A stretch of DNA of 64,000 bases from Brachionus manjavacas (lineage: Eukaryota > Rotifera > Eurotatoria > Ploima > Brachionidae): the NCBI GenBank assembly GCA_019054805.1, contig JAHQIY010000016.1, positions 1,922,001 to 1,986,000 on the forward strand. The letters run 5' to 3'. The notes beneath the pieces are model-generated. The model made no database searches. It had not been told where the DNA came from and saw nothing but the letters and a program-made list of their open reading frames with translations. Within the stretch, counting starts at the first letter, position 1, and the number at the start of each line of letters is the position of its first letter. The position numbers and the translations under genes were made by a program. Below, in pieces: positions 17,505 to 56,069 of this stretch.

Positions 17505-18349
17505 CAAAAATTGATCAATTTATTGGATATTTTTCATATTTTTTAATTTAAGCTGTACAACACAAAAATCACAATAAAAAAATAATTTCTAGAATTAAAT
17601 AAAGCTTATTTATTTATTTAATAAAATTTTAAGTCCCATGGACAAATTGAAATAAAAAAAAAAAAAAAAAATGGACAGTTAAATATCCATTTTACAATTA
17701 AGTAAAAAATTCAGTTTGTTATATACAAAAAAATGATTAAAATTATTCAATATACAATATTCTATTAAATAAAAATAGTATTAGTAAATAAAGCTTATTA
17801 TTTGTTCATCAAAAAAAAATCTTTTAGGTTTGATTAATTTTTATTTTTGCTGAACAGATTATTGCCTGTGAACAACAGTTTTTTAATTGTGCTCAAAAAA
17901 TCAACTCTAAAATAAAATTCCCTCTTCAAAAAAAAAAAAATCCAAATAAATTTTAGTGTTCTTTAATAAAGTTGACAAAAGAAGTCAATATGACACTTTA
18001 TTCTTCACTAAAAAAATTTCATTGTATTGCTGATCATCTTGTGAACAAAATTCAATTGAGATAAGCCAAAAAATTATAAATATTAGTTTTAAATTTCAAA
18101 GGGACACAAAAGTTAACTTTTTTATGCTAATAAAAAGTATTAAAATTTTTTTTTATTATTTGTGAAAAAAAATGAAGACAAAAAATTGCATCATGTTTAA
18201 AATTTTAAATAAAATTGCAAAATTCTTATTTTAATTTTTTTTCTCTTCCATTGCCATTACCCATTTAACAAACAAGAAAAAAAAAAACTACTTCTCAAAT
18301 ATATAAATAATAAATGTTATAGACAATTGAAAATTAAATTTAAAATCGA

Positions 18350-21300: not shown

Positions 21301-22075
21301 TGATGGTAATGCTGATGATGATGAAGATGAGCAAGAGTTTAGAAGTGGCGAACGCAATGACAATGTGGACGACGACGGCGAGGACTATGCGGCCGAGAAC
21401 GACGAGCCAAACAGGCATGATAGCTTGACTGGTTCGGCGAGTGATGCAGACGATGCAGCAGGCACGATTAGAATTGTGCCCGCCAAAAAAGAGACCGTGT
21501 GCAAAGAAGACGACGAGTTCATGAAAGCGTTCGAATCGATGGTCACCGAAACGATTGCTCAACGAACCAAAGAAACCATCAAAATGCCCACTGTTGACAT
21601 ATCGGTGCCAATGTGTGCTCGCAAGCCAAAGATTGCACAAGTCCAAGACGTCAACGAGCTGCCCGGTTTGTCCGTGCTCAAAGAAAAACAGCCGAGCAGT
21701 ACCGAGGCAGAGGCAGAGGCGGAGGCGAGAAAAGAAGCGTTCAGTTTTGTTCTCATGCTAAAAAAAGGCAACAAGACTCAGTATCAAAATATGCAGGTGC
21801 CAGTGACCAGTGAGTTTGCCACACAGTTCAAGGCCAAAGAACAACTGGAAAAGGCAGAGAAAGAAAAGCTCAAACAATTGACTTTGAACATAAACGAGCG
21901 GATCGAACAAGAGGAATTTCAAGAATTGGTTCAACAACAAAGCACTCAAAAACAGTCGATGCTTGGCAACACAAATCGAGATCGATTTAAATACAATCAT
22001 CCGAAAGGTGCACCTGATGCCGATCAAATATTCGGAACTAGTAGTCAGCGCACTTATCGCGGCTACACTAAATAG
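18350..22075 (+). CDS. UPF2: UPF2, nonsense-mediated mRNA decay factor
   Basis: Single exon, 1241 residues, close to animal UPF2 length. It holds three MIF4G (HEAT-like) regions: residues about 40-290 (LNKDMKQLNLSKYLSEVAAAF), about 476-660 (SRELIDKAAKDYC, KVNRKRLTRALF) and about 680-900 (LHEYVKKILYKELNK, RQMRKLNWHDE). An acidic stretch of about 958-1040 is partly encoded by a GAT/GGT/GCT repeat and includes a DGDGDANANADGGDADGDG run. The UPF1-binding end is about 1129-1190 (FVLMLKKGNKTQYQNMQVPV, INERIEQEEFQ). UPF2 bridges UPF1 to UPF3 and the exon-junction complex in the cytoplasm, stimulating decay of mRNAs with premature stops. The second acidic stretch at about 425-470 (EIEKIEKEIEELEIDE) precedes MIF4G-2. 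No intron is needed, unlike the neighbouring VPS13. Poly-A signal candidate at 22276-22281. Coding sequence is far richer in G+C than its flanks. Confidence 0.96.
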   Translation: MEDETNSDNQTEQEVASLNQYIQEKEDRLRFKQDLRQKNQNVEGLRLDDAVLKRLDSSIKKVTSFIKKLKTVTESQKDSLNKDMKQLNLSKYLSEVAAAFLEAKLKMNDVQCALILCSQMHQSYADFSNIFFEQWQKVLNLKKDGKIQNPSKLRVDLRFFADLISIGVLPEKECLSLLGNQLTILTTCDKDHSHISIVSSFCKHCGEDFADLVPLKYEKLSQKHHIQIPRSTIYSNDRQKAVKCLFKEYFMAVSKHLVTEHKEMQRIEAQNMRIYQTKGELHSDKKEKYEQAFSAYRKLSENSEVLADLLGEQMPHLPKDQNSKKEDGMLNVDVYTPTKGEDFDANSSPWEDEETRQFYESLPHIKSLIPEILYKETASALATNAAPGASAKSVAEAKAKADQDVSGAHESTGGMVDMSVEIEKIEKEIEELEIDERGLASGEEEASGGELGQDEEQDEANKESQVQEKSVSNANMKALMDSFINQLPNCVSRELIDKAAKDYCLNLNSKVNRKRLTRALFEVQRTRLDLLPFYARFVATLSPVMAEIATDLATLLLNDFRYQVRKKDQINIESKIKVSRYIGELVKFDMLPKSEALNCLKTLLADFRHHNIEMFCNLVEVCGRFLYRNAQTHIKMNLLLEILMRKKQAAMSMDSRYTIMIENAFYYCNPPENKQVEKKAPWPLHEYVKKILYKELNKLCVERILRQMRKLNWHDEQVSSMALECLTSAWNLRYNSIHCLANLVSGLALYYEDIGIHIVDSVIEDIRLGLEINLAKFNQRRVSMVKYLAELYNYRMVESSIIFKTLYTLITFGVSYDLNELISNADTCADPLDNYFRIRLVCTLLDTCGQYFDRGSTKKKLDCYLVYFQRYYMFKKEFGQSVDIARPYDRFDIEFVFTDIISSLRPEFKFANSYEQACEQVHKMEGEIRDSLLKSNPNLVNQYELNANPSDSLTTISEDVVAEQSEDDGDGDANANADGGDADGDGNADDDEDEQEFRSGERNDNVDDDGEDYAAENDEPNRHDSLTGSASDADDAAGTIRIVPAKKETVCKEDDEFMKAFESMVTETIAQRTKETIKMPTVDISVPMCARKPKIAQVQDVNELPGLSVLKEKQPSSTEAEAEAEARKEAFSFVLMLKKGNKTQYQNMQVPVTSEFATQFKAKEQLEKAEKEKLKQLTLNINERIEQEEFQELVQQQSTQKQSMLGNTNRDRFKYNHPKGAPDADQIFGTSSQRTYRGYTK

Positions 22076-24894: not shown

Positions 24895-26019
24895 TTATAT
24901 TAATTTTTCTCTTAATAATAATAATATTTTAATTGAATTGTAATACAAAATAAAACAAAAATATTTTCCAGATTTTAATTTCTGTTTAATTATTTACAGA
25001 GTTGACCAAAAGTCAATAATATTAAAAGTTGTACTTAAATAATGAGATTTTAACGCACGGATTTAAAAAATTCAATAAAAATTAATTTTTAGCATATATT
25101 TAAGTTTTATGACATGTTGTAAATCGAAAAGATGGACTGATCGATATGGCAATTTTCGTTTTCAAATAATTTTTTATCAATCTTTTATCTTATTTAATAA
25201 AAATTTCTACAATTATAATCTTTTATTTAAATTTTATTTTCTTTACAAAATAACAAGCATTTACATTTGCTATTCATCTAGTAGTAGTAGTAGTTTTCTG
25301 CGACAAGTTTAAACCATTGTAGAACAACACAAGTTATATTTTGTTAGCTTGTAGAAGCATTGTTGCTTAAAACAGAGTTTTTTTATAGTCGCTTGTTAAG
25401 TCTTTTGACGCCATTATTTATTGTCTCCTTGAATCACGAGTCCTGACATTTAATAGCAATTTTAATGATGATTTTTAAAATTTAACCATAAACAAGAAAG
25501 TTAAAAAATGTTTAAAAATGAAACATTTTAGAATTCAATTAAGTTAGAATTTTTATTGCTTAGTAATTTTTTTTTTCATAGATACAAGTTTTCAAATCAT
25601 TTGAGTTTAAGAATGGATAAAGTACAGACAAATATAGCTTATATGGACTATAGTTAGCTTCTTTTTTTTTTTTTAAATTTTGTTTTCACATTCAATTTTG
25701 TAACTTCACAAACTGAAACAAAACTCACCAACAGAAAACAGCATCTTGTCCATCTTAAAACATTAACTTTTGCCATATGCTTTTAAGTCTTGTTCCAAGC
25801 TTTTGGTCTGCATCCAGAATAAGTTCAGACACTTTCAATTAAGTTTTTTTTAGAAAATAAAAATTGTAATTTGTCAATTTTCATTTTGATCTGGCGTCTA
25901 AAAAAATATTAGAACTACGAAAGCTCATTTTTTCGATCAAAAACTTCATTTTTCGGATTGTAAAGTGGTCAATTTTTTGGAACGACATTAACTTTAATTT
26001 AAAGAGAAAACATTTGTGG
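24895..26019. other. intergenic, AT-rich
   Basis: No gene recognised. It contains a TAG-triplet run at 25279-25315 and little else of note. Confidence 0.45.
25279..25315 (-). repeat. (CTA)n tail, probable LINE 3' end
   Basis: CTAGTAGTAGTAGTAG followed by TTTTCTGCGACAAG. The LINE at 41961-42603 begins on the plus strand with the same CTAGTAGTAGTAGTAGTT and then CTTGCTGCGA, so this is probably the last bases of a strongly 5'-truncated copy on the minus strand. Confidence 0.4.
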
Positions 26020-27244
26020 AAAAATTGAAATATCAATCAAATACTTCAATAGAATCAAATTACTTACTCTAATATTATTGATCATTTGTACTATAGCCTA
26101 TTTGGTTTTTTCCATTACAAATGCAACCAAGGATGCCAATTGCACATGTGGATGCATCAATGACTTGACTAAAAATAGCACGTTGTGAGCATAAACTTAA
26201 ATGATTTTATAATTATCATTTAAGTTTATGCTTTGATAATGATATTTCAAATAATTAGTGCAAAAAAATTACATTAAATTAAAATAAAATTCTATTTTCT
26301 TTATCTAAATAAAATTTAAAATATTCTAAAAATGAATGATAAAAATTATCTTATCAATCAAAACCAATTTGATTGTTATAATCAAGATTCTAATTTTAGT
26401 TTAGCTCAATTGACTTGTTCTACTGATTATGGCAAAATTTTTAACAGATGTATAACTTACGTAAAATTACTTTGTAACAAAATGTAAATTTACGTAATTT
26501 TATATTTAATTTACGTAATTTACGTAATTTTACGTATATTCTCAAACTATAAATCGTCGGACTTGTTTGGATACTTGTGTAGTTGCTTTAACTCAAATTG
26601 AAGAAAAATATGTTGCAATGGCATTTTCTGGTAAAAGTCATATCCAAATTGATGCCTGGACTAATTATACAACAGAAACAAAAGATCACATATATCAGTT
26701 GTTAGTTGGTCATTCAGAATTTATCAATTGCTTATGAGCTGTAAAAAATGATCATTTAATCAATGGATCCGACGATAAAACGCTGAAATATTGGAAAATT
26801 TCAACACTTGAATGCATTTATACATTCAAAGGTCATACTGGTTCTGTGTCGTGTATAGAAATAATAGCCAAGAAAGAAAAGTTCTTGAGCGGATCATCTG
26901 ACACAACAATAAAAATTTGGAACTTGAAAACAGGAGACTGCTCATAAATTTTCAGTGGACACCGATCTCATATCAATCAAATTCAATTATGTCAAGATGA
27001 AATTTGTTTTCTAAGTTTGTCTTATGATGGGATTTTGAAGCAATGGAGCTTAAAAAGTGGTCAATGTGTGCATACAATGGACGAAAATAAATATGACAGA
27101 ATAAGTGTTTTTACAGTTTTAAAAACTGGAAATTTGGTCACTGGCTCTAGGAATGGTAGAATTAAAATATGGTCAACTAATGAGAACAAAATTGAAAATG
27201 ATGAACAAATCGAAAACAAACTAAAAAAAAAATTTGTAATTTAA
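26020..27244 (+). pseudogene. WD40-repeat protein pseudogene
   Basis: The frame carries at least four WD repeats: LLVGHSEFINCL, LINGSDDKTLKYWKI, FKGHTGSVSCIEI, FLSGSSDTTIKIWNL, FSGHRSHINQI, SYDGILKQWSL and LVTGSRNGRIKIWS. In-frame stops lie at 26735-26737 (TGA) and 26945-26947 (TAA), so it is broken, although the last 75 codons are intact. Upstream, about 26070-26185 is open with a hydrophobic stretch (LLTLILLIICTIAYLVF) and CTCGCIND, and 26340-26450 plus 26555-26640 continue with TCSTDYGKIFNR and TCLDTCVVAL. A roughly 105-bp insert rich in TTACGTAA interrupts these two. The inferred parent was a membrane-anchored or secreted WD protein with a Cys-containing N-terminus. Confidence 0.75.
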
Positions 27245-28247
27245 AAAATTGACTTGAAAAATTGAAACTAAATATCAATTATTTTATTTTTATAAATTTT
27301 CTACAATAAATCTGAATTTTAAAATTTAAAAGAAATCAAATAACATAAAAAATACTAAAATATTTTCAAAATTTTGACTAAACTTTTCAAATTCAAAAAA
27401 TATCAACTTTAAATTCTATTAATTAGTTTTAGTTATAATCGATCTATCTAAAATTTCTAATATCAAAAAGTTTTTCTTTAAAAAAGGACAATTTCTCCTA
27501 TCTAATCGATTTTTGCCCCAGTTTTAGCAACATAATTTCTAAATTTCTAAATCGAAATTAACAAAATTTCATGCTGTTTTTGAATTTTTAGAAATAATTT
27601 TGCTAACAGTTCTTAAAAATTAATTTTAATGCGTATAGTATTTTAGAATAAATAATTATTAATTAAACAAAATAAAATTATTTAGTAAAAATTTAAAAAT
27701 TATGTGTCAAAAAATTTTAGAAAAATTGTTTTTATTAAAAAAATTCTTTATATTTTGAATTTTTTCTAAATTAATTAGATATATATAATTTACTGGCACG
27801 ACTGCTTAGTCATTTTTACAATTATTTTCATAGCTCAACCTTTCACTTGTCATCTATTTTTTCTCATCCCTCACGAACTATTTAGCATCTCTAATATCAT
27901 GTTCGATTTGATCATAAAAAAATAATATCTCTTAAGACAACTTAGCCGTATTTTGCATCCCATGATTTAAAGAAAATAGGTTTTCTTATAAGTGGTTTCT
28001 TTAGTGCATTTAGAAGTATTTGTTTCATATTTTTTCAATTTTTTTTTACATTTATTTTTATTAATTATTTCATTTTTTTAATATTTAAGCAGTTTTTTAG
28101 GTGAGACTTGATGAGCTTTTAGTGTAGTTTTCAAAAAGCAATCCAAAGACAAAATAAAGTTACATTAAGAATTTGATAATTTTTCTTAAAAAATAAAAAC
28201 AAAAAAAAATCATAGGAAAGAATATTGGTTAAACGAAATTGGAGTTT
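27245..28247. other. intergenic, AT-rich
   Basis: Nothing recognised in about 1 kb apart from AT-rich simple sequence. Confidence 0.45.
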
Positions 28248-28903
28248 TTAACTCTTATCCGTCCAAAATTGGGTCAAAAATGACCCAATATTCGGTTATC
28301 GGCCAAAATGGGTCAAAAATGACCCAAGCAAAATTACATTGAATTTTTTCTATAAATTAAAAAACTTTTCATTCAACTTAATTGATTTCGATTGTTAATT
28401 GATTGTCTTTCCCTTTAAAAATAAAAACACCGAAAACTGATATTACTTTAATTGTTTTATTCAGTGTAACTTTTTAAAAAATGAGAAAATACCGATAAAT
28501 TATCTTATTTTTAACTTCGCTAAGTTGATTTAAAACGGCTAGAATAAGCTTATTCCCTGATTAATCAATTAAAATTAACGGTTCATGGCTGGGTCTATAA
28601 AAACTAAGTTATTAATTATATTAGAAGTATTAAAAAAATGAGTTTTTATAATATGAATACATATAACTATTCATCTGAACAGGTAGATGCTGAGGATCAA
28701 GTAAGCGATGACGAGTTTGATTATGTTCAACCTACTCTGCAAGAATTTGTCGACGAGTATGAAAGTGAATCAGAACGTAGTAAAAAATTGGAATTTTTTT
28801 TCGGGTCAAAAATGACCCATTTTGGCCGATAACGTTTTTTTTTCTATTACCCGTTCATCTTTAACTATTACCCGTTCATCTATTTTGAACGGGTAATAGT
28901 TAA
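28248..28903 (+). mobile_element. piggyBac-like non-autonomous element with transposase N-terminus
   Basis: Both borders are TTAA (28248-28251 and 28900-28903), the piggyBac target. Left end CTCTTATCCGTCC and right end GAACGGGTAATAG are imperfect inverted ends. Inside, the palindrome TGGGTCAAAAATGACCCA occurs twice at the left (28270, 28309) and almost once at the right (28803), with CGGTTATCGGCCAAAAT at the left and its near-inverse at the right. A 64-codon frame at 28638-28832 (MSFYNMNTYNYSSEQ..., then DDEFDYVQPTLQEFVDEYES) is acidic, as piggyBac transposase N-termini are, and runs into the right inverted repeat. No catalytic domain is present. Family assignment rests on the TTAA borders and the acidic frame. 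Confidence 0.55.
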
Positions 28904-28905
28904 AG
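28859..28905. repeat. perfect 20-bp inverted repeat, 7-base loop
   Basis: The arm CTTTAACTATTACCCGTTCA at 28859-28878 is repeated exactly in reverse complement at 28886-28905. CTATTACCCGTTCATC also occurs just before the left arm as a direct repeat. This is the right end of the piggyBac-like element and may be two element ends abutting. Confidence 0.85.
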
Positions 28906-29419
28906 AAAAAAACGCGTTTTTTTAACCTTAAATTTTTCAATTAGTTTTACGTAATTTCATTTTTGCATTTTCACTCAATTTTCAATAGGCTCTTCTTGCT
29001 AAAAAAATTGAAACGCGCAATTTGATTGCAATACAGTTTACACAGTTTTTAAGTTTCAAATTTTAATTTAAAAAAATTGCAGTCAAATAGCACATTTAAA
29101 TATTTTAAGAAAAAAGAGCAAATTTAAAATTGATATATTGATAAACCAGCAGGTTCTTTGATGTATTTTGACAAGTCCACTTAACATGAATTTTCATATG
29201 TTTTTACCATCTTTGGTCAAAAATCATGGTAAATTGTTATAAAAAAATATGGTTTATTCGGAACTGTCTCTGAAAGTATGTATATAAATCCTTTATCTTT
29301 ATTATTCCTCTGTTATTCATGTCCAATTTCGAACACTCACTTAAAATTTTGTCTTTAAATTAGTAAAGATGGGCCCTTAACTTCTTAATGGCTAATGGAA
29401 GATCTTAATCTGATTCTTT
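28906..29419. other. intergenic, AT-rich
   Basis: Nothing recognised in this stretch. Confidence 0.4.
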
Positions 29420-30596
29420 TGACTGATCTTTTAATTTTGATGAGTTATAACTAAGTAAATCTATCTTTACTTTTTTGGTAGATATTCTGACTATTGAGCC
29501 AGAATTACCCATATTGTAATTTGATGCATTAAAAACTGTTATTACCTTGCCATCATGTCCGATATCATGTCTTTTTTGTTTGCACTCATGAGATCTAATT
29601 ATTAGGTTTAAGTTGTTTTCTGATTTCTGAAAAGTTTTTTTGTTACATCTGATCCATAGAATTTTCCAATATTTCTTACATTATTAAATTCCAAACCTTT
29701 TTATGTTGATTGCGGATCGCTCCAAAGCATATCAATTACATCTATTAAAAATCGAAATACCAAAGAATCTTTATCTAAAATTGTTTCTCTGCATATGGAA
29801 CCAATTTTAGTCCTGTCGAGTTGTTGAATTTTTTTAAAATTCAATGTGAAATTGATTCCACCATGAACCACAAAGTATCGTTGTTTAGTTATTTTGTTGT
29901 TTACAATTGTGGCAAGTGGAACATTTTTGAAAAGCTTATCAAATTTATTATAAACAACAGAACCATATTTGCCAAAGTATTTAAGAGTGGCAATTTTAAA
30001 ACATGGTTTGTAGTTCATATGGCTGTTTTGAGCTCTGTCTTCATGATTACCTCGGTTAAAAAAAACCCGATTGGGATGCAAAACAAATGAATAAAGCAAT
30101 GCTAAAACAACTTCAATTTGTTTTTCTCCTCTGTCAACCCAGTCACCATTGAAAACAAAATAGTAGTATTTTCATGGAATGTTGAAACGAGTGAGTATGT
30201 TAATCTAGTCGTCAAATGACCATGTAAGTCACCCACCACAATGCATTCATCATTTTCATATAATGAAAACTCACAAATATTTGGCAATTTTTCAAGAAAC
30301 TTGATTGATTCATTGATTATATTCACTGAAATAGGTGCATGTATTAATCTATTGGAACGAAAATCTTAAAGTATTTGTTTGAAATCGCCTTCTTCGAAGT
30401 CTTTTCAAAATTTAAGACCATTATAGTTTGGTTCTATTTCAATTTTTATTTCTTTAGCTTGATTTTCTTCTAAAAAAGTAGCAATAAGTTCAGTTAATTT
30501 TATAGATTCCCGCTCTTCAAGAAATTCCAATTCGTTCAAAATTGTAAAAGCAACGTTCTTATCTTCTTCTATTTTAAAATCATCTTTTTGAGACAT
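29420..30596 (-). pseudogene. PPP-family Ser/Thr phosphatase pseudogene, PPEF/rdgC-like
   Basis: Minus-strand frames carry the PPP metal-site motifs in order: IVVGDLHGH, then (other frame) FNGDWVDRGEKQ, then FFNRGNHEDRAQN, then YFVVHGGI, MLWSDPQ, RNIGKFYGSDVTKK, and in a third frame IIRSHECKQ and VITVFNASNYN. Upstream, 30405-30596 is open and acidic. Disruptions are a TGA near 30405 and a TAA near 30368 in the upstream frame, a shift near 30170, a TAA at 29701, and another shift near 29630. RGNHEDRAQN and RSHECK are closest to the EF-hand phosphatase (PPEF/retinal degeneration C) group. No EF-hands are seen. Introns could explain some shifts but not the in-frame stops, so I call it a pseudogene. 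Confidence 0.75.
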
Positions 30597-30799
30597 TCTT
30601 AAATAACACTAACACAATATAATATTGATATAAAATTTTATTTGAAAATTTGATTTAACTTTATTAGCTTAATTAAATTTTTGTCGTTCATAGAGATTTT
30701 TTATAGAATTAAATTAAAAAGTTTATAATTTGATAATAAAATTTTTATTAATTAAAAGTTGAAAAAACTAGTGTCTTAAAAGAAAACCGAAAAAAGATC

Positions 30800-31351
30800 T
30801 TATGGAATAATGTTTTGGCTTAATCCTAAGAATTTAGCAATGTACTTTAAATTAAGATTCTTCTTGTTCTTCTTATAATCATTTTCATGCTGATAGAACT
30901 TAAACAAATATTCAATTTGAGGAGTAGTAAGCTGACGAAATGATTCAATTGTGTTGGGCAAATCTGGAATTTCGTTATTTTGACCCTTGAAATTTTAAAT
31001 CAGTTTTTAATTTTATAAAAAATAGAAAAATAAAATTACAAATAGCCATTCAAAATTCTGCTGGTTTGTGGTTGAACAAAAACGATTTTCATATCTTATG
31101 ATTGAATTTTTTTCATTAAGCTTTATGTTTTTTTCTAAAGTTGTTTTTAAAGATTCAATTTTTTCCTTAAACTCCTCTTTGGTAACCATGTTATTAATGA
31201 TATGATCAATTTTTTCATTCATTTTGACGGATTCGATCAATATTGGAAATATCTTTTCCATTGAATTTGATGTTTCTTTTAAAGCTTCAGTCAATTTATT
31301 AGTTGAAGCTTTAAAATTTGCGATTTCTAAATTGGGGTCCATCCTTTCCAT
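30800..31351 (-). CDS. small two-exon coiled-coil protein, unrecognised
   Basis: Exon 1 is 31040..31351 and exon 2 is 30800..30985, with a 54-bp GT-AG intron in phase 0 (donor GTAATT, acceptor TTTCAAG); 165 residues. The N-terminal half is helical with heptad-like spacing (TNKLTEALKETSNSMEKIF, KEEFKEKIESLKTTLEKN). The C-terminal half (PDLPNTIESFRQLTTPQIEY, then LFKFYQHENDYKKNKKN and YIAKFLGLS) looks like a compact helical domain. I know no family for it. The clean splice, small intron typical of this genome and intact frame argue for a real gene. It is adjacent to, and on the same strand as, the phosphatase pseudogene. Confidence 0.55.
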
Positions 31352-31571
31352 TTTAAACCTAAATGAAAAAATATTTATAATTTTTGATTTAAAATTAATA
31401 ATAATAAAAATAATGTGATAATAGATCCAAATTTTTGATAGAAAAATTAAATTAAATTTTATTATTTTTCAAAAGAACTTAATTTAAGCTATTTATACAT
31501 TTTCTCATTTGTTGTTGCATTGAGAATTAAAAAAAAATTAAAGCGATTATCACTGGGAGTTTGTGAACAAC

Positions 31572-31620
31572 AACGCATGAAAAGTTGCATTAAAAAAAAT
31601 TAATGCATATTTTCATGCGA
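31572..31620. repeat. imperfect hairpin at the start of the 99-bp array
   Basis: ACGCATGAAAAGTTGCATTA and TTAATGCATATTTTCATGCG face each other around a short A run, with two mismatches. The right arm is also the first part of repeat unit 1. Confidence 0.65.
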
Positions 31621-31955
31621 TGATCACGAGAAGCATGTGAACATTAAGGGTTTTTAAATTTCTAGATTTAAATTTTTTGGCTTAAACTGAAAATTTTTTT
31701 GATGCATCTTTTCATGCGATGATCACGAGGAGCCTGTGAACATTAAGGGTTTTTAAATTTCTAGATTTAAATTTTTTGGCTTAAACTGAAAATTTTTTTG
31801 ATGCATCTTTTCATGCGATGATCACGAGGAGCCTGTGAACATTAAGGGTTTTTAAATTTCTAGATTTAAATTTTTTGGCTTAAACTGAAAATTTTTTTGA
31901 TGCATCTTTTCATGCGGTGATCACGAGGAGCCTGTGAACATCAAGGGTTTTTATT
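31602..31955. repeat. 99-bp tandem repeat, about 3.6 units
   Basis: ATGCATCTTTTCATGCGATG recurs at 31702, 31801 and 31900, with a variant at 31603; spacing is 99 bp. Units 2 and 3 are almost identical and the first and last are diverged. Each unit carries GATCACGAGGAGCCTGTGAA and a TTAAGGGTTTTTAAATTTC stretch. No coding sense seen. Confidence 0.9.
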
Positions 31956-32412
31956 TTTCTTGCCTGAAATTTTTTTGTATCTAAAATTTTCTGTTAAGAA
32001 TTTAGCCACAGATAAAACTATATGAATTCCTTGCAAAAACTTTCCAAAAAAGGATCATTATTTGTTCAATTTTTTTTCAAAATTTTTTTCCAAATAGTTA
32101 TTGATTATTTAGTTAATAAATTTATTTTTAATTGTCTAAAAATTTTAGAATGGTCGTAATTCTATGCTCCTAGAGAATTAACAAAATAAAAAAAAAATAA
32201 ATAAAAATTGAAAAGCAGCAACCGCTTTTCTTGGGATTGAGAAAATTTTCCAACAGTAGAAAGTTTTAAGTCAGAGACTTTAAATTTTTTTTTACTAACA
32301 AGGAGAGCTAAAAATCATGAAGAATCTAAATCCCATATTTATATTTGTAATGAGAAAAAATAGAATAAGATCAACTTTCTTCAATAATAATTTTTACAAT
32401 AAAAAAAATAAA

Positions 32413-33111
32413 CTGTCGAAGACAATATCCAAATGGACAATGTTTTGATATTGATCGACGAGGACAAAACAGTCCAGCAAAAAATCAATCTAGACATCAA
32501 GCTTTCAAAGGAAATAATGGAATACGCCAACCAAACTGGCACCATTAAACACTCAGCACACATTAGATTCGACGAATTCTACTTGTCGCCAATGGTGTTC
32601 AACTTGAGCTTTAGCGTGAATGGAGAAGCGCACACTGACGACAAAATTAGAACAGACTCAAATGCGCCCACCGACTATTTGTTCAATTTTTTTCTCGAAT
32701 CAATCGGAGCCAGCCTCACCGAATTCAAAGATGTCAAATTTAGCTTCAACCAATTTGACATGATCAACGAGACCAAGACTTGGAGTGAAATTTACGACAC
32801 TCTATTTGACCACTACAAAATTCAAGCGTTGCGTCAAGCCTATGTTCTAATTCTGGGTCTTGACGTACTCGGCAATCCGTTTGGCCTAGTAAGCGATTTT
32901 TCCGAAGGTTTTACGAGCATTTTCTACGACCCGTTAGTTGATTATTTGTCCGGCAAGAACAGAGCCGACAAGGTAGATGTGGAATTTACAACTAAATTGA
33001 AATTGGCGCTTAACAAGTCAGTGAGCAGTGCGGCAGGCTCCGGATCGTTAATTACCGGGACTTTGGGCAGAGTTTTGGCCACTTTTTCATTTGACAAAAA
33101 ATACAAACGAG
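32413..33111 (+). pseudogene. partial copy of VPS13 exon (3' end of the 47.9-50.4 kb exon)
   Basis: About 699 bp match 49661-50358 with only three substitutions that I can find (A/G at the codon before MDNVL, and two silent changes), so the encoded protein is the same except Val to Met. The match begins abruptly at 32413 in mid-exon. It ends at the exon donor, with only about 25 bp of similar intron start (TATCTCTCTCT). No acceptor consensus lies just upstream and no VPS13 exon is nearby, so it cannot give a normal VPS13 product. It lies 2.1 kb before the VPS13 start, same strand. An open frame of 234 codons survives. Confidence 0.85.
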
Positions 33112-33135
33112 TATTTTTTTTTCTATCTCTCTCTT

Positions 33136-35232
33136 AATCGCATTGAAACTACAGTACTGATATAATTTTATTTTTATTGTATGTAATTACAATCACTGGA
33201 TGGTATCTGAAAACATTTAGCAAAATTTAAAATGCTTTTTTTTAAAGGGAAAGAATATAAAAAAAAAATTCATAAAAATTTATCATTTTTACCAGAATAA
33301 TAATCTCTCAATTTTCTTAACATCTTCTCTTATTACTAAAGACTAGTTTTTTATAATTTTGAGTTTCTAAGGTTTGCCCAGCTCAAAACTACATCACTAT
33401 CTGAATTTGACTTTTTCGCTTACAAATTCTAAAAGATCTTAATAATTCATTATTATTTTAAAAAAATAGATCGTAATTTTAGATGGAAAATTGTACATCC
33501 TTACCAGCGAATCTATACGTAAGTTTTTTTTAAATGACATAAAATAATGAAATCTTGCATATTCTTTTAGAAAAACTGTATATTCAAATATAAATTGATT
33601 GCCGATGTAGGTACCTGCATCATCTATGGATAAAATGAAAGTTTAAAGTCATCAACTTTTTATATTAATATTAATATTGATAACTAAATCAGAAAAATAA
33701 CTAATTAATATTTCTTGATAAAATAAAATAATTAAAAACAAGAATTTAAATTTATTTTTTTCTAAATGATAATTAGAAAAGCTAAAATGGTGATCATGTT
33801 TTTAAAATTTTGAATATATATTAAATACGATATTAAGTTGTTTTGTAGAATTCAAAATTCAAAAAAAAAAAATTAAAAATTAAAAATTCAAAAAAAAAAA
33901 TTTTTTATTTATTTAAAATTTTGGCTTAAGTCATCTCTCAATGTAAGCAATGATTTGAGATAAACTAAAAAAAAAATAAGTAAAAAGGTTATCAGATTCA
34001 GAAAAAACTGATTATTTCTCAAACCAGGTACACTGCTTCTAAATTTCTTGTTCAATTGGTTTATTTTCGTTAAGCAATTTTATAAATGGTATTAGCATAT
34101 GTGTTCGTTTGTTAGTTTGATAATTTTGCGCTCTATTTACCTTTAGGATCTCTTTCTCTAAATGCGCTTTCTAAAATTTTTAATTTAAAAAGAAACAGAC
34201 AATAATAAAAAAACCTTTTATTTAAAAGCTTAGTGAGATAAAAAAATTAAAGAAATAAATTTGAGAAGTTTATGATATAAAAAATATTCTATTAAACTGA
34301 AAAATTTCTTGTTTTCTTTTTCTATTTAATTTAATAAGCAGATCTTGATCAATTTTGCTCATTTTGAAAAGATAAATATATTTTGATGTCAAAAAAATCC
34401 TAGATTCTTTTTATCAAATTTAAAATAGAAAAAACCAAAATTGGATATAAAATGTAATAAATTATTCAATTGTTCTAAATTTATTTTTTTTCTAAGATAT
34501 TTGCCCAGTTGAGGTTTGTGCAACAATGTAAATCAAATGCAACCACAATGATTAATTTTTTAAAACTTTGGAAAAAAATCTTTTTATCAAAAACATTAAA
34601 GGCATAATTTTTTTGATAGTTATTTTCAATTAGTGTATCAATTGCGTCACCAAAACAATAGCTCCAAATAGTCATGCCTAGAGTACTGAGAATAAATAGA
34701 CATTTCATAAAGCTTAGAGCAAATATTTTTTCTTACATATTTTTTTTATTCTAATTGCTAATCATGATTTTTTTATTTTATCAATTAGTAAAGAAATTTA
34801 ATTAAATGAATTAAACAAAATAGTTTTATTATAACAAAATGGAAGAGAGTGGTAATTTTATCGATGGCTTGCAAATGCGGCAAGGAGTCATTGATTGAGT
34901 CAGTTTCAGATTATTGTAACAATTGAGGCGTTAAGTTTTAATGTTCAGTCAAGAATATCATTTTGGTTACGAAATTAAAACGATACTTAGCTATTTTTTA
35001 TTTTTTATTTCATTCTATTTTTGGTGTAAAAGCAAGATGTTGCTTTGTTGCTCAATTTTATGAAAAAATTATACTTAATTTATTTATAATAAATAATTTC
35101 TTCAACACATACTTTCTTTCAAAAACTTGGCTAGTAATTTGAAATATTATAATTTTGTTATGTTTTCTTAAGTTTAGATTAAAATTTGTTTTTAATAGCG
35201 AATAGTTTAGAGTATGCGACAAAACTGACACA
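33136..35232. other. region between the exon copy and VPS13
   Basis: Mostly AT-rich. A weak match to the intron after the true exon is seen around 33335-33440 (shared CTGAATTTGACTTTTTCG and GTTTCT). Exon-like scraps on the minus strand at 34040-34360 could not be joined. The last few hundred bases are presumably the VPS13 promoter and 5' untranslated region; no clear TATA box. Confidence 0.45.
34481..34708 (-). CDS. possible small secreted protein
   Basis: 75 codons with a plausible signal peptide (MKCLFILSTLGMTIWSYCFG) followed by a short, Lys/Asn-rich chain containing one Cys pair. No family recognised; composition is AT-driven after the leader. It may be a first exon or chance. Confidence 0.25.
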   Translation of the reverse strand: MKCLFILSTLGMTIWSYCFGDAIDTLIENNYQKNYAFNVFDKKIFFQSFKKLIIVVAFDLHCCTNLNWANILEKK

Positions 35233-38200
35233 ATGTTCGAAAGTCTAGTTGCTTCGTTGCTCAATCGATACTTGTCCGATTACATCGACGAGGTCGATTA
35301 TAATAATTTAAAGCTTGGCATTTTCAGTGGCACGCTTGAGTTGCTTAACATCAAAGTAAAGCCGAGTGCCATGTACCAATTCGATCTTCCAGTAGATGTA
35401 AAAGGAGGCACTATCGGCCGACTCAAAATAAACATATCATGGCGCAACATACTGACCAAACCGGCCGTTGCTGTCCTCGAAGACTTGTTTGTGCTCTTGG
35501 GACCTTTCGAGGAGAAAATAAACGACCCAGCACGAATCGAAGAGTTGTGCTTGGCTCACAAGCGCAAACAGCTTCAAGAATTCGAAAATTTGGACAAACG
35601 CGAGATTGTCGAGAGCAGGGAAAGAGGATATGCGGAAAAAGTGCAAGACACTATTATAAACAACATACAAGTGTATGTCCAGAATGTGCATATCAGGTAC
35701 GAGGACAAGCATTCGCTAAAAGACAAGAGTATTTCGTTTGGTGTTTATTTAAAAGAATTCAAAGCAGAAACTGTGGACGAAGACAATAAGCCCAATTTTA
35801 TGAATGCTGAGGCCAAAATTATCTACAAATTGGGCTCTTTGAGCGGATTTAATATGTATTGGAATTGCGATTTTGGCCTGCCAAAAGATCTTTTAATATC
35901 AAGCGGTGACGACTTTGACCCGCTCGATAACAATTGGATTGATCTAATGAAAAATTCAATTGATTCCAATAAAATCCTGCAGAGTCAATTTTGCAATTGT
36001 AATTACTTATTTTCCTTTTTTTTCCTTTTTTTCTCAAGAAGTGAAGTTGGAAATTGGAAGAATTATTTTTTTTTTTAAGTTTAGCTTAATTTTTTGAATT
36101 AAAAAAAAAAGAATTTGAAATACAATTTTTTAAAAATTAAAAAGAAAATTAGCCTTTAATGATTAAGAGCTTTTCAAAAATTCGTACTGTTGTCTAGCCG
36201 ACAAAAATTGAAAATCTTTTAAATTATCTAAGTAAATTAGGTAAAAATTTAGAATAAATTTTAAAAAATAGAAAAAGTAATAAATACAAATTTAAAGCAT
36301 TTTCGGCATTAATTTGATTTTTTTTTAACAAAAGTCGTAACATTACGTAAAATTACACACATTAGGTTTAAAAGACATATCACAAAAAAGCAGATTAAAT
36401 ATTAGGCAGAAATCTAAATTTTTTATATTTAAATAAAATAAAAAAGCGAAAAAAAAAGCTTTTTGATGCTTGTTGAAAAAATCAATTTCAACTACTAAAT
36501 TTTAATTTTTTTTTAGTCTTGGAAAAAAATCTCGATCTTGTTACAAGACTGACAATTAGGCGTTCGTATGAAAAAATCGATTCCACTTTGCCTAGAATTA
36601 CAATACAGTCATCAGTCGAATCAATAGAATTTGTCTTTCATCGTTTACAAGTAATTAATAAAAAAAAAAAAAAAAAAAATTTTTCATTTATTGAATTGAA
36701 TAAAATTTAATTAATTTATTTTTTTTAAAAAAAAGTACAAAAGTATTCTAGAAATCGTTGACCATTACACAATGCTAAATTTGCACAAAAAATACGTCAA
36801 GTACAGACCTGGCTACATAAAGGACAAAAAAGAAAAAGCAAGAGCATGGTGGCATTTTGCTTTTACGGCCTATGCCGAGACCACATGGCGACAATTTCGC
36901 AAAGAGCGAATGCTCGGCCATTTCAAAAACTATAAATTGTATATGAAAAAATACGAAGAAAAGCTAGTGGCTGAACAGGCGGGCAAGGAATTGGAGCAAA
37001 GAAAATTGGACTATTTGGAAAAATTGGAACGAGACCTAGTGCTCGAAAGCATATTTGACATCCGCAATGTGCTAATGAACAAATACAAGCTAAACGAAGA
37101 GACAAATGAGCAAAAAGAAACAGACATTTATGATAGACCGTTGAATTATGTACAATTTCGATTGATACTTAATTTTCCTCTAATTAGTTTTAAACTTAAA
37201 AATGGTCCGAACCAAATACTATGCTTGAATTTGAAGAGCATTATTTCGCGTTTTGAATTAAAACCTGTGCAAAATAGTGTCTATTTTTTGCTAAATACCC
37301 AAGGACTAGAATTGAGCGGCATTCATTACACTGATCGGATTGAATCGGGCAATCTCGTGCCCATTATAAAAAGCTCTCACGAATCTCAAGGCTTAGATTT
37401 GCCAGCTACTTATCTAGCGTCCGAGAATGCCAAGGACATGTTGTTCGTGTTTTGTTTTGAGACAAATCCGCTCAAGCATGAAAATGCCGAGTTTAGCATC
37501 CGAACTAGGATAGCGTCGTTGGAAGTGTATTATGAAAAGACGCCCATAAGTGAATTGATGCGTTTTTTTAAAACAGATCTGGTCGATTTTGGTGAAGTGA
37601 GAAAAATAAAAGAAGTTTGGTCAAAAGCTGGCGTTATTTACGCAGTCGAAAATCATAAACAATTTCACATAATTGCCGAAATGGCGTCGCCCTATTTTAT
37701 AATACCTGCGTCGGGCACTTGTACCCAGCCGAGCGATTCAATTATTTTCTTTTTGGGAAAAACGCTGATTCAAAGTCGCGTACAGCCAAAGTTGACCAAC
37801 TACGCGCCTCAAAGTGTCCAAGATTTGGAGAAAAACTTTTACGACAAATTGAGCATGAATGTAAAAGAAGTACAAGTGCTGCTGGTGCCGGCCAATGTCG
37901 ATTGGAAAACCTACTTTCAAAACTACAAAGATCTAAACTATTGTCACCACTTGCTCTATCCAGTGTCGACCAAAAGCTATCTGTATTTGTCCATCAACCC
38001 GAGCTATAAAAAATTGCCCAAAATGAAACTAGAAGCTGACTGCTCGTCCATTAGACTTAATTTTTCCAATGACAAAGTGATAAGTCTGTACGAGTTTGGC
38101 AAGACTTTTCCTCTGCCTGAAATGCCCACAATCAATGCAACAAATGCTCATGCAGCATCATCGGTGGCGTCGAGTGTCATTCAGCCGAGCAATCACTCGA

Positions 38201-41200
38201 GCAGTCACAAGCGTGCGGTTGAAAATAAAAAATCGGACAAAAAAAGTGCACCTCAAAATTATATGAATTTGGCGGGCGCTGATGAAATTGAGCCCGATGA
38301 CGAATGGGATGGACCGTTCAATTTGCCCAAGTACATAAACGGTGATCCCATTGTGAACTACAGTCAAATAACATGTCGGTTCACCATCACTGACTTTTCG
38401 ATCGATCTCAATCAAGCCCAAACCGAATATCTTCACTTTATATTCAAATCGATTCAGATCGATTTTGTGGTCGCCAAATACGGAATTTTTTTGCGCTCAG
38501 GTCTCGAAGACTTGAAGCTAATCGACAAACTGCACACGTCTCCATCTCCATCTCCATCTCTCAACATCAATCCTCAATTTACCGAAATATTGTCCAGTTC
38601 AAATCAAAATTCGAATCAAATCATAAAATTTTACTTTAGACAAATAGATGCAGAGGCGCCCAACTTTGACACACTCTACGCCAAAATAATCACCAACATT
38701 TTGTTCGACTGTTCGAACATACACGTCAAGTGTCATCGTCAGGCTATAGTCCATTTTGTCACCTTCATCAAATCGACAATCGATCGCGTAGACCAAAGTC
38801 AGGACACTGCTCAATTGGAAACAGTGGTGGACAAGTCGAAGACGGTGACCAAGAATTTGTCCGGACACAGCGAGCTCGCACAAGATGCCTGCGAGTTCAA
38901 TCTAGTGGCCAAAATGAACAAGCTAACATGGAACATGTTTGATTCGCAAGTGAAATTTGGCGACATGATTGTTAAACAATTGAGCGTTGGCTACAACATT
39001 CGCGGCGCCAAGACTGACCTGCAGATTCAGTTGAGCAAAATATTGATCAATTATGGCGACGAACGCGAACAAATGAACAAACTGTATAGGCAAATAATAA
39101 GTTGTACAGGCGATCAAGAGAGTGGCAAATTTTTTGACTTTAGTGTCGTTCTGTACGACAGAGCTAAGCTCAAACAAGAGACGAGTGAGTGTCGCGACGA
39201 GCTGCGTCTGAATGTGGGAAAAATTAAGGTCATTTGTTTGGTCAAGTTTGTCAACGAATTGGTCGAGTTCATCGATCCGATCATAAACCCACTGCCCAAT
39301 GCTTTGACCGAACAAGTAAAGGAACAGGCTTTGGAAGCAGTCAAACAAGCCTATGAGGAAAGCAAATCGAATATGGCGAACAAAATTTATTTGCATGTGT
39401 ACATTACATCGCCCCAAGTGATCATACCGCGCAATTCTAATTCACTGAGCGCTTTTGTCGCCGATTTGGGAACAGTCAAAGTGACAAACAGATTTGTTGA
39501 CGAGACTGCTCCACAACAATCAGCGTCCTCTCAACCAATGTCCACCATTCAGTGCATAAATTTAGATCTGCTCAATTTGGAAATAAAAAGAGTTGTGTAC
39601 AAAAAGCATGAGAGTTCATGTGACATATTGGAACAAGTGATAAAGCCGATTAGTTTGAGCAGTTTGGTCAGAATGGCCATGACAAACTCGCAGCCTGATT
39701 ACTTTGCCGATTTGGACATTTCGGCTAGTTTAAAACAAGTCAAATTTATGGTCAGTTTGGACACGGCTCAACTTTTGTTTGCCATTTTGGCCGAGAATTT
39801 AAACGAAGGCATTAGTAAAAAAGACGACGACATTCAGCATCAAGTGATCAGAAAAGACGATAGGCCAAAGATCATGGACAGTGTGTCAACGACTAGTGAA
39901 CGTGTCACGCTCAAAATGAACATTGATCTAAATGAAATTAAATTGATTATTGTTGATTTTGAGCTTAATCCGGTGGCGAATAGGCGCCGCAATGGCACTC
40001 TGCTATCTCATCATTCATCTGCATCTAGGGAAGAGAGCACTGATTTTCAGTCAGCAGCGTCAAATAGTGAACTTTCCAACGCAGACTCGGACAACTCCTC
40101 TAGATCTAAACCCAAATCGAAAATTTCCTATTTTAGTCATTTTGAAATTCAAACAATTGGCTTCAAGTATTTCAAAAGTGAAAATTCGTCATGGACAGCC
40201 GATTTGAACATGAGATCGTTGGTGCTCAATGACGTCAGACCTGATTCTAATTTGGCTGTCAAAGAGTATGATTTTTCTTCTTTTCTTTTTGTTTTTTTTC
40301 TTTTGTTTATTCATTCTAAGAATTGCCAAGTGCGTATTCTTCAATTGCTTTAGTCATTTAGCTCAACACTATTTGATAGTCAAATAAATTTACAAATAAA
40401 TTTAGTTTATTTGAAAAAAGTTTGAATTTGAATTTAGTGTTTAAGCTTTTGATTCTAATCAAGTATAGATAGGTTAAATCTCTAAGATGATCATTTTCGA
40501 TCTAAGCACTTAGATTTTTTTTCTTTTATTTTTTAGCTTAAAACTGCCACAAAGTTCTATTCTCACCTTTTTGTAAATTATAACATTTAATTTAGTTTAT
40601 TGAATTTTTTGTATTTTACGGAAATTTACGCGAAATTAACAAAGTAAAAAATAGATTATTTAGTGAATTCTACCGAAATTTATATAAAATTCTCGTACCG
40701 ATTTTGAGCCTTGGGTCAGTATTAAAGTTTTTTTGTGATATTTTTGTAAAAAATTCAAAATTATATTTTAGTTTTTTAATTGTTCTTTGTGTTAAGTTCG
40801 TATCTCCGCATCAAATACTTTGTTCAAAATTTTTTTTTTAATTTTTACAAAAATATCAAGCTAAAGTAAAATTAAAGCTGCATTAGAGCTAACTTAAATA
40901 ACTTGATGATTATGGGGATCCAAAGCTTAAACACATCTTTAAAGGATGCTGTATATGAAAAAAATGTTTCTACATGACTAAGATGGTGCTTTTTGAATGC
41001 ACCAAGTTTTTTTTTTCCCTTTATATTTAAGGCTGAAAATCGAGAAGAAGAAAATAAGTAAATCAAAAATTAATAAAAATTATGGAAATTAAACTGATCA
41101 TTAAAAAAAAGATAGAAAAATCTAATTTATATAGTAATATGGGTTAAAGAGGTGACCACTCTTGAACTAAAGCTTTCTACCGACTTTTATTATTAAGGTC

Positions 41201-44200
41201 TAATAATCGAAACGTATCTGCTAGTTAAAGACCCTAGAATTTCATTTCATTTTTTTACTAAAAATTCTCTTATTTTATACCGTTCATCCCTTAACCTCGT
41301 AGATTAACTCCACCAGATATCTCATCTAAAATACTGTATTATAAAATTAAATTTAAAAAATAAAAATTCCTAAATTTATTTATTTTTTTAAAGGACAATA
41401 AAGGTAATTCTATTTTTATAAAATTTTTATAATTTTTGATATAAATTTTTCATCTGTCTAGCACGCGAATTTTTAAGGTTTAATTAAATAGAAAAAACAT
41501 CACAAAATCCAATAATCCAGGGTAAATTGTTTAGGTTGAGTGAAAACTTTGGGGCAAAAGGAGTGATAAAATTTTAAATTTTTGCACCTTATTTAGATTA
41601 AGCTTAAATTTAAAATATCAACAAAAACATGTCACATATTAGACCATCTTACAATATTTAAATGCAGAGCTAAAATACAAGAATTTATCTTTTAATTTAA
41701 AAATTATTCAATAATTATTTTGTACAAATAACAGTAACCTGCGGAACGAAAAACTCCTTAAAAAACGCTGTTTAACGCATGTTTAACAGGCACTTTTTTT
41801 AAAACGTATTTTTGCGTTTTCGGGCGTTATTAGGCGTGAAAACGTGAGCATTATGGCACGCCAACAAAATACCTAAAAAAACAAGCACCATAAAAATTAG
41901 GAAATTTTATAAAAAATTTGATAAGCCTTATTTTAACTAAGCATTTTTTTTTTTTTTTTTCACTAGTAGTAGTAGTAGTTCTTGCTGCGAAATCCTAACA
42001 AGGAGGAAATCTGAGCTCATCACCGCTTAAAGGCGTATGAAGCTTTAGCAGCCAATTCTGTTAAACCTATCTAATGCTACTTTGAAGCCATTAACTGTCT
42101 TAGCTTTAACCAACTCCTCAGGAAGTCTATTCCAGTGCGGAGCTACTCTGTTCGAGAAAAAACGTGTCTAGCACTCACTGCGGCAGAAAAATCATTTCTT
42201 TTTTGTGCTGGAAAACTATCTCTTTGAACTTTTGCGCTGTTTCCTCTTAACCTCGGTATCGGTCCATTCCTGCCAACAGGATCCAGAAGTTCTCTGGTAA
42301 ACGACACTTTTTCATGACCGTTAATCACTTTAAAAACCTCAATCAAATCACCTCTCACCCTTCTCGTACTAAGTTTTGTTAAACCAAATCTGGCAGGCCT
42401 TCCCTCGTATGAAATTTCTCTTAGTGACCAAGGAATTTTCGTTGCACGCTCTTGTACTTTTTCTAACGCTTTTACGTCACCTTTTTTGCTCCGATTCCAA
42501 ACTTGAACTGCATAGTCGAGGTGAGGTCTAACCAAAGACATATAAAGTTTCAACCAAAGAGTTTCTTCTCTACTTAAAAATGTTCTTTTAAGAATTCCGA
42601 GTGCTAAAAAACAAATACCATAAAAATTAGGAAATTTTATAAATAATTTGATAAGCCTAATTTTAACTAAGCATTTTTTTTTTATTTAATATTTTCATTT
42701 TCTAGAATGCATGAAAAAAAAAAAGAAAATTTTATTAAAATTTCTCTTTTAAAAATATAAAATAGCTTGTGTTGAAAAATCTTTAAGTACTGGTCAATCA
42801 TTTAAATAAAAACAAACACGCTTTTTTGCATTTCGTTTTGACTCGCTTAAACGCTCACGTTCAATACGGGCTAGGTTATATACTAAAAATAATTGATTAG
42901 CAAGCATTATGAATAAGATGTTTTAATAATTAAATAATTAATATAATAATAATAATTGATACATTAATAATTAAATAATTTATTAATTATTAATTTTGAT
43001 TGTGAAAATATTAAAAATTAAAAAAAAAATTTCAAGGATGTTTGTTTCGTCCAAACAAGAGGACTTTATCAAAATTTCGTATCGATTCAGACCACCCGGA
43101 AATTCTTGTTTGGATTTTTTTATGGACAATTTAAAAATAAACCTTTGTCTACCATACGTGCTGAGGATATACAAATTTGCCATGGACGCAATTGGTACGA
43201 GCAATGTAAGCGAGCCAAAAATAGACGCATTGTCAAAAAACCGACCAAACTCAAGGCCAGATGGGGCCAAATATGAGTCTGACTCGTCTCTGATGGTTAA
43301 TGGCCGAATTAATTTAAGAGAAGTTGTTCTTTTTGCTCAGCCGGAAAAAGTCAACAGTCAAATTTTGATCATGGAAGCCGAGCTCGTTCTCAAATTCGAT
43401 TCGGTGAACTCGGCGTCCAATTTAGAACTGGACTTGACCAACTTAAGCTTGCGTCTTGGCGAACACAACTTGAGACGTCAAGGAATTCCGTTTTTAAGTC
43501 CGTGTTCGGGCAAAGTTAGCATGCGGCAAATTGATCCGAAAAAACCAGCTCGCTATCTTGCCCAAATAGACTCACTCTATTTCAACATGACACAAACTTT
43601 GTACGAAGTGGTAATGGGCGTAGTGACGTCCATTAATCAAACAGGCACTGAACAAATTCAGAAGATAGCCGACGAAGAACAGCTGCTGGACGACGCCGAA
43701 CCGTTTGTGAAGCGTCCAGTCGAGCCGAGCAACTACGAGTCGCATGCCAAATCGTCTCATCAAATCGAAAGCCAAAGCACCACTGCTGTCCAGTTCAGGC
43801 GCCACAAATGGACTAAAGTGAGCGAAATGCTCGACTTGAAAGTTCGACAAGCATTCATTACTTTTTGCGAAGAGACTTCGATGGACTTGCAGCCGTTGGC
43901 AATTTTTAAGCTTCAACTAGAAGCACACGTGGCCAACTGGAGCCAAAATTTGCACACCAAAGCATCGTTGACTCTGGAGGCGAGCTACTACAACGACATA
44001 CTGAGCAATTGGGAGCCGCTGATCGAACACAACATGCAAAAGGAGGACAAGTACAGGCCGTGGATGTTGAGCATTTGGTTTGCATTGGAGCCGGGCGGCA
44101 CTGTGCAGCCATCGATTGAGATCAAAGGTGTGCCGACCATTGAGTTTCCGGTCAAGGACTTGGACTATTCGGCGGTGGAGGAGAGCGAGGCTGAGCAGCG

Positions 44201-47200
44201 CGGCGTTGACGCCCAACAAATTGGCGATGATGATGGCGTTGGCGATGATGATGAGGACAAAAGCACACACAAAAGGTTGAAAGGTGGATTTTTTCGAAAA
44301 AAGAAAAAAAACAAAAGCTCACATGTTCTTCAGCAACAAAAACAATCTGAGCAATCTGAGCAATTTGAGCAATTTGAACAGATTGAGCAAATTGATCGAG
44401 TTGATCGAGTTGATCGAGTGAAGCAACCAAGTGAAGAGAGAGTGAACAACGCAAGCTATGTGCTGGTCGAATCGAACGATTTGCTGAACATAAACATAAC
44501 GCCAAGTGCGTACAAGGTGTGCATGTATTTGGCGAGCATAACGAGTGGTTCGCAGCGTCAATTCATGGAGGGAAATGTCAAGGCTCCGTTGAAATTTTTG
44601 AATTTTCTCGGCCAACAATGCGATCTAATATTGAACAATAGGCAATCGCTAAAGGCCGAAAATGCCATCGGCTTCAATGTCAAGTATGAGAGCGACAGTA
44701 GAATAAGCTCTTTGTCTGACGATGCGAATAGACGCGTCGAAAAAATAATGACCAATTCGCAGCGCTCTCAAATCGACATGATCTATAACGAAAATTACAA
44801 GTTCATTTTTTGTTTGCCCAGTTTCGAAAAGTGTCGCTTGTCGATGAAAAACGACGGCTCGTTTTTGTTTCCTCTGCGAGCTCAAAGAGAGGACGGCCAC
44901 CAGCCACCCGTGTCCGACTCGTCGCCGCTCAATCAACAAAACATCAAATACAATGTCATGTACAAAGTGAGAACACTGTATGGCAGACAAAAAATAATCT
45001 TCAGCTCACCGCTTCAAATCGAAAATCACACTCAAATCGGCATGTTGGTTTGGATCGAGTTGAATGATTCTGTGTATGAAAACAAGAGCATGGTCGAGTT
45101 CATCGATCAAATGAAACACGACGACAAAACATATGTGGCCTTGTTTAGACTGTTGCCAAACAAAGTCTTCTATGTGCCATTGTATGTAGCCTACAATTGC
45201 AAAGTTTACGTGTCGCCCGATACCAAAACGTTTTTGCCATCGCAAATATTCGATTTGCGCGGCTACAATTTGAGAGTAGAGGACTTTTCGCAGATTGTTT
45301 GCCAAACGCTCACCTATCAGCATCAAAATTTTAATCTATTGAGAAAATTGTCTCTTAACGTGAGATCGCATCGAAATGTGATGCCGGCCATGCATGCCAA
45401 CTACAGAGTCGGCTTGTACACGTCCATTCGTTTGGTCAATTCACTTCCCTTTCAGATCAGACTGGACATCGATCAAAACGAACAGGTTTTGTTCAATCCA
45501 ATATTGGAGCCTGGCGACATACTAAGTCTCAATTTGGACCCGGCCAATGTCGCCTCCATACGCATTCATTTGCTCAATTACTTGAACACCAGTTGGTTCG
45601 GCAAGTTGGTTCTTTCCCAAGTGATTAAATCGAATAGCGAGGTGTGCAAGATTAAAATGAACCTTTCGCCAACCACCGAAATGCTTGTCACTGGCAAACA
45701 CTTGAATGTGTGCGTTACTTACAAGCAACCAAATGAGTTTATTATCTATTCGCCATACTGGCTTATTAACAAGAGTGGACAACCCATCAAAATAAGAGTA
45801 ATTATTTTTTGTTTATCTATTATTTATTTCTTGTTTATTTCTTGTTTATTTCTGATTTCATATTTAAAGCTATTGTGAATTTTCATAAAATAGTTTCAAA
45901 ATACAAAATTTAAAATCTCAATTAAAATATTAAGAGTTGTTTATTATTAGGTAGACTTAATAATAAACACGCAAAAATAGTTTCAGCACTAATATTTAAA
46001 ATCTAACAAACCCACTAAACTTAAAAACATTTTTAACACTGTTCTACACACCGTTTTTTTAGTAGTTTTTAGTAATTTCTAATAATTTTTAGTAATTTTT
46101 AGTATCTTTTCTTTTATATTTTACCAAAAAATTCTAATAATAATTAGGTAGTGGTGAGAGAATTTTAAAATTTAAATAAAATAAATCTACAGATTTCAGC
46201 AAAAACAAAAGACAACCACTTTATCTAAAGCATAGATAGAATTTTATAGTTAAGAATCATTGAACTTAAGACAAATAATTGAGCGCAATCTTCCAAACTC
46301 CAATTAAATTAGTCTGAAATCGTGGCATAAAGCCCTTGCTCAAGGTATTTCAAATCTTGACGGATTGATGCAATATTTGCTTAAAGAAACTTCCCTTGAT
46401 TTTGTTTTTTTTTTCTGAAGGAGCTTTAGTTTGTTACAGATAAACATCTAAAAAATTAAAGATAAAATTAAAAACGCGTATAACATTTTTAAATAACAAT
46501 AATATGCAATTTAAAAGCTAAAATACTCAATTAGGAACAAAATAAAAACATTTTAGTTTTTTTTTGTAATTAATGTCAATTACAATCAAAAAAACTTAAA
46601 TTTTTTATTAATTAATCCTATAATGTTCAAAAAATAGCCACTTTGAAATTTTTTTTATCTTTCTTGTTTTGTTTTTCAAATTAACACTTTTGATTTTACT
46701 TTAATATAAACCAATGTAGCCTTATCTCTAGTTCGATATAGTTAATCGAATAAATAAATAAATCTTTAAAATAACTCAATAAGTAAATAAATAAATACTC
46801 GGGAATTTAAAAAAAAGGCCTGTAATTGAAGAAATTCCTAGTAACATATCTCAAGATCAGGCCTTTGAAGCTAATACTAAAGGAAAAACTAGAGGAAAAG
46901 GTAATTGTTATTTTCCTTCTTAAAGTTTTCACTTTTTGGAGGAAGCAAAAAAATTCCTCGATAGAGAATTTGATTTTTTTGCCTTTAAAAAATTTATTTT
47001 GTTTTTATTTTTAATTTTTTGTTCTTTTTAGATAATTAGTCCTATATATTTCTAAAAAAAAGCAATGAATAAAAAATTTTGTTCCAAATTCAGTATTTTA
47101 GTTTTTTTTTGCATAAAATAAACCCAGGAAATAATTATATGCCAATTAAAAATTTTTATTTTGCACAGTTAAAAGCCGATAGAATGCTCGCTTTTTTTAT

Positions 47201-55709: not shown

Positions 55710-55784
55710 GCAAAATCTAGTGATGAAATCGAATTTTTTTTTTATAAGAAAATTGAAACTTGAATAAAAAATTATTCTGAATAA

Positions 55785-55940: not shown

Positions 55941-56069
55941 GAATTTTAATTAAATTTTATTTTACTTAAAAAATTTACAGAAAAATATTTGAAATAAATA
56001 TTCGATTAGAAAAATTGAATAAAAAATAACAATTTGAATTGTTTCGATTTAAATTCAATAAAAAAACAT

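Follow-up and report, generated by a model that had tools for sequence, protein, structure and literature searches.

Why is a fragment of a gene almost identical to its source up to the end of an exon, and hardly similar to it in the intron that follows? This question is raised by a short segment of the 64-kb window analysed here (that is, the whole stretch of DNA under study), in which the end of one VPS13 exon is present a second time. The copy lies upstream of VPS13, about 2 kb from its start codon and about 17 kb from the source exon, and has the same orientation. We assign an even chance to the reading that the copy is an old partial duplicate of VPS13 and that gene conversion, with VPS13 itself as the source, later overwrote its exon part. 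The coordinates of the features discussed are given in Table 1.

Table 1. Positions of the VPS13 copy, its source and neighbouring features, numbered from the first base of the window.
Feature	Position	Strand	Remarks
Nuclear-receptor zinc finger	12872-14506	-	Domain match
UPF2	18344-22075	+	One uninterrupted frame, 1,243 residues
Copy of the final 698 bases of a VPS13 exon, nearly identical	32413-33110	+	Three substitutions; frame open
Beginning of the VPS13 intron in the copy, with the donor GT	33111-33134	+	One substitution and one indel relative to 50359-50383
Diverged block colinear with the VPS13 intron	33350-33430	+	78%; 75 aligned bases with 12 mismatches, and one 6-base gap
VPS13 span within the window	35206-51865	+	Long open frames; exon ends partly mapped; predicted start codon near 35233
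Source of the copy, final 698 bases of the VPS13 exon	49661-50358	+	Alignment with the copy
VPS13 intron block matching 33350-33430	50485-50559	+	Local alignment

The window has an A+T content of about 70% and an animal-like gene set. Nuclear receptors, of which a zinc finger is found here, are an animal marker. The uninterrupted frame of UPF2 contrasts with the neighbouring VPS13 gene, which is split by introns. The VPS13 frames have Pfam matches to VPS13_N, VPS13_M, VPS13_VAB and VPS13_C, and the frame containing the source exon matches the solved structures of VPS13A (E = 1.2e-59) and VPS13C (E = 1e-57). The copied segment corresponds to the stretch of VPS13 after the VAB region, ending near position 1394 of the VPS13A chain 9yg5_B to which it was aligned; the exon copy itself has no Pfam match.

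Copy and source are identical at 695 of the 698 exon positions, in agreement with a preliminary description of this DNA, which had reported an exon match of about 700 bp with three substitutions, two of them silent. The substitutions (copy/VPS13) are found at 32433 (A/G), 32576 (A/G) and 32705 (C/T); the two silent ones are GAA/GAG and ATC/ATT, and the remaining one gives Met in the copy and Val in VPS13. The open frame at the copy comprises 241 codons. When the adjoining intron bases are included, the alignment spans 723 columns (32413-33134 against 49661-50383), with 718 identities, four mismatches and one gap.

The copy had been described as extending from 32413 to 33111 and as stopping at the splice site. 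The start was placed correctly, but the exon part ends at 33110, after 698 bases, and with the G at 33111 the intron has already begun. In VPS13, the donor (50358/50359) has phase 0 and allows an in-frame join to the exon starting at 51131. Past this donor, the similarity continues for 24 bases in the copy (25 in VPS13), much as the preliminary estimate of about 25 bp had it, and a substitution and an indel are already present there. The two loci first differ at the fourth base of the intron, and the final 17 bases of the shared intron stretch are identical in both; at the rate observed in the exon, two or more events in the first 24 intron bases have a probability of p = 0.005. A stop at the splice site is therefore nearly right for the 3' edge, with its 24 shared intron bases, but does not apply to the 5' edge, which is abrupt and lies in mid-exon, where there is no splice site. 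Upstream of 32413, no similarity above background was found in comparison with shuffles and other non-coding windows: the upstream flanks (300 against 300 bases) score 14.4, under the background median of 15.2 for other non-coding windows, and the 5' flank compared with the intron upstream of the VPS13 exon gives an A-rich match scoring 25.0 (shuffle mean 20.2, maximum 26.4). Just upstream of the exon copy, at 31603-31975, there is a 99-base tandem array of 3.8 copies.

Further downstream, a weak block of similarity to the VPS13 intron had been suspected near 33335-33440. Such a block exists, with the somewhat narrower limits given in Table 1, and it is specific: it scores 61.6 in local alignment, a value reached by none of 100 dinucleotide shuffles (maximum 26.5) and by none of 257 and none of 261 other non-coding windows (maxima 22.3 and 20.4). 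The block pair is colinear with the exon copy and has the same orientation. Eight repeat pairs in the 64-kb window, the block pair included, pass a filter of 60 bits or more, 40-500 bases and a distance of at least 200 bases, and one of the eight lies within the 99-base tandem array. Chance placement of one of these pairs colinearly within 250 bases would be expected about 0.00012 times downstream and about 0.00024 times on either side, or roughly 1 in 4,000, an estimate that assumes uniform placement and has a somewhat higher value in non-coding DNA. Between the exon and the block, an AT-rich match (33250-33276) scores 22.9 against a maximum of 19.7 in 100 shuffles, and is equalled by 2 of 251 and 2 of 263 other non-coding windows, so that it is not distinctive when compared with real sequence. 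Beyond 33430, there is no similarity above the background of shuffles and other non-coding windows. A structured RNA in the block was considered and rejected, as no Rfam match came near its gathering score; the best were U7 (E = 0.12; 18.4 bits versus 34) and MIR5185 (E = 0.71; 17.5 versus 101.7).

Aligning exon and intron at both loci, as had been suggested, shows that the intron is not equally conserved: the exon has 3 differences in 698 positions and the colinear block 12 in 75 (p = 1e-10). The difference persists when only the silent sites of the exon are counted (2 of about 144; Fisher p = 6.6e-5 relative to the block), although the contrast is valid as a signature of conversion only if the block is homologous by duplication. 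Selection at the protein level alone was rejected as the cause of the exon identity because the silent sites are nearly unchanged too. The preliminary argument that a recent duplication should leave intron and exon equally similar is sound, but a duplication ending just past the donor would look alike, the colinear block aside. Because the diverged block is colinear, in the same orientation and specific, it is probable that the duplication is old and originally took in about 200 bases of the intron, and that its exon part is young. If the block is indeed part of the duplication, it follows that the exon part would have been re-copied later.

According to the conversion reading, a segment of VPS13 comprising at least the exon end and about 200 intron bases would have been duplicated long ago to its present place upstream of the start codon, and the intron part of the duplicate would then have decayed until a single block was still recognisable. 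At a later time, the exon part would have been copied anew from the VPS13 exon by ectopic gene conversion. The two introns, having diverged too far to pair, would have halted the tract at the end of the exon. At the other end, the 5' edge may represent the original start of the duplicated exon, or a later cut. Exon-biased gene conversion is a well-known process, of which this would be a clear instance. According to a review of Caenorhabditis paralogs, most reports of conversion between paralogs concern exons and divergent introns may be an obstacle to it; the tracts inferred in C. elegans measure 12-2,958 bases (PMC3966223). Our confidence in this reading is moderate because the same review describes conversion in Caenorhabditis as often taking in introns, with tracts mostly surviving at 50-200 bases, and advises against ruling out a very recent incomplete duplication. 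At about 700 bases, the tract observed here exceeds that typical range. It should also be noted that the older duplicate is suggested by a single block of 81 bases.

The main rival to gene conversion is such a recent duplication, at the DNA level. A fragment of about 722 bases (the exon end plus 24 intron bases) would have been copied upstream during break repair, and the block would be an unrelated dispersed repeat that lies beside both the copy and its source by chance. This would account for a 5' edge that is abrupt inside the exon, with no similarity upstream of it, and for a breakpoint that falls in a CT-rich tract; in addition, the window has several other dispersed repeat pairs of similar size (about 80-94% identity), and this very case is flagged in PMC3966223. 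We nevertheless consider it unlikely: chance placement that is colinear, on the same strand and within 250 bases has a probability of about 0.0001-0.0002 if placement is uniform, and the two differences in the first 24 intron bases ill suit a single age. The colinear blocks could also be explained without an older exon duplicate if they were older repeats that supplied the homology for an ectopic repair event, which recently copied the exon fragment. The sequence between block and exon should then have been carried along, but it is not distinctive in comparison with other non-coding windows. A stretch of 81 bases at 78% is also poor homology for repair, and we regard this possibility as very unlikely.

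Two further explanations were considered. In an assembly or polishing artefact, the upstream copy would be a chimeric join, or an older fragment would have been "corrected" toward VPS13 by mis-mapped exon reads. RNA-derived reads could produce exon-limited polishing; however, a simple chimeric join would not be expected to show three clean substitutions together with a diverged, colinear intron, and we judge an artefact quite unlikely. Alternatively, an old exon fragment may have been converted by spliced VPS13 mRNA or its cDNA, in which case the splice junction would set the limit of the patch. Human cells have been reported to repair breaks with an RNA template (PMC12065846), and a first difference at the fourth intron base would suit such a template. 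The same edge, however, is given by a DNA-level tract limited by intron divergence, the last 17 bases of the shared intron stretch are identical, and intron deletion, the signature described in that report, is not seen here. This explanation is not favoured and appears highly improbable, and to regard the pair as a germline trace of RNA-templated gene conversion, from a gene onto its own upstream fragment, would be a long shot.

Among the origins proposed in the preliminary description, gene conversion is supported by the comparison of the block (12 of 75) with the silent sites (2 of about 144), but a processed template in the form of a retrocopy is not supported. A processed retrocopy was rejected in view of the 24 intron bases past the donor together with the lack of a next exon, of poly-A and of a direct flanking repeat: the next VPS13 exon has no match among the matches listed for 33112-35200, no poly-A was found after 33134, and for three assumed ends, 13%, 22% and 30% of 300 shuffles gave direct flanking repeats as long as the longest observed. 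A DNA transposon carrying a gene fragment would be expected to have terminal inverted repeats at the edges of the copy; the inverted flanking matches, all composed of A/T only, were equalled in 38%, 22% and 4% of 300 shuffles for the three assumed ends. A decayed tandem copy of the whole of VPS13 was likewise rejected, with no other VPS13 exon recognisable upstream; in a tblastn comparison of five VPS13 open frames with 25000-35200, the best match besides the copy, among the 15 best listed, had E = 0.49. A search for relatives in viral contigs gave 0 matches in a pattern scan, and none of the 11 stretches that matched a pattern in a protein scan was confirmed.

The locus shares features with several known systems. 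As in interlocus gene conversion in Caenorhabditis (PMC3966223), near-identical coding sequences with diverged flanks are closely linked in the same orientation, and the tract falls inside the 12-2,958 range; unlike those cases, the acceptor is a fragment of one exon and no gene, the tract is long, and the older duplication is dated by one short intron block alone. In Argiope silk genes, the coding repeats have been homogenised despite divergent introns (PMC9779670). Exon similarity is uncoupled from intron similarity there as well, but the silk genes involve repeat arrays and whole genes, whereas here a single gene and a fragment of it are involved. Double-strand break repair with an RNA template (PMC12065846) would also yield an exon-limited patch, but its reported scar is the deletion of a whole intron, which is not seen here. 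Finally, partial gene duplication likewise places an incomplete gene copy nearby, although here the exon part appears to be of another age than the intron part. The pair is a neat test case and no new kind of system.

If the conversion reading is true, a single duplicate would carry two clocks, the intron being old and the exon young, with the splice site between them. Such pairs would make it possible to probe why tracts stop at exon edges, whether through lost intron homology or through a spliced RNA template, and exon identity would be an unsafe clock for dating duplicates. Otherwise, the copy is no more than a gene fragment of the ordinary kind. As direct repeats 17 kb apart, copy and source lie on either side of the start of VPS13 and could mediate deletions.

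As to a function, the copy most likely has none and is a piece of a pseudogene. The three differences are too few for judging selection. The Met/Val difference at 32433 provides an in-frame ATG near the start of the copy, from which a frame of 234 residues could be read; 11 of the 2,094 possible single substitutions would create such an ATG before the next Met, which corresponds to 1.6% for three changes. The possibility that this candidate frame represents a new gene was not adopted, being post hoc.

The window also contains other repeated sequences and the remains of a hAT transposase. Two 29-base tandem arrays in opposite orientation (55780-55955 and 58320-58575) flank open frames on the minus strand (56070-58111), which have matches to the hAT dimerisation domain and the BED zinc finger, with DUF659 just below the cut-off; the region 55780-58575 is, judging by these matches, a putative hAT element with satellite-like ends. 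In a VPS13 intron, two 82-base direct repeats that are 94% identical (41876-41957 and 42606-42687) flank an open frame on the minus strand (42143-42685), which has no Pfam match and which we take to be the end of a LINE reverse transcriptase. A dispersed repeat pair at 8186-8463 and 17151-17420 is 82% identical, also matches in inverted orientation, and probably belongs to a foldback or small DNA transposon family.
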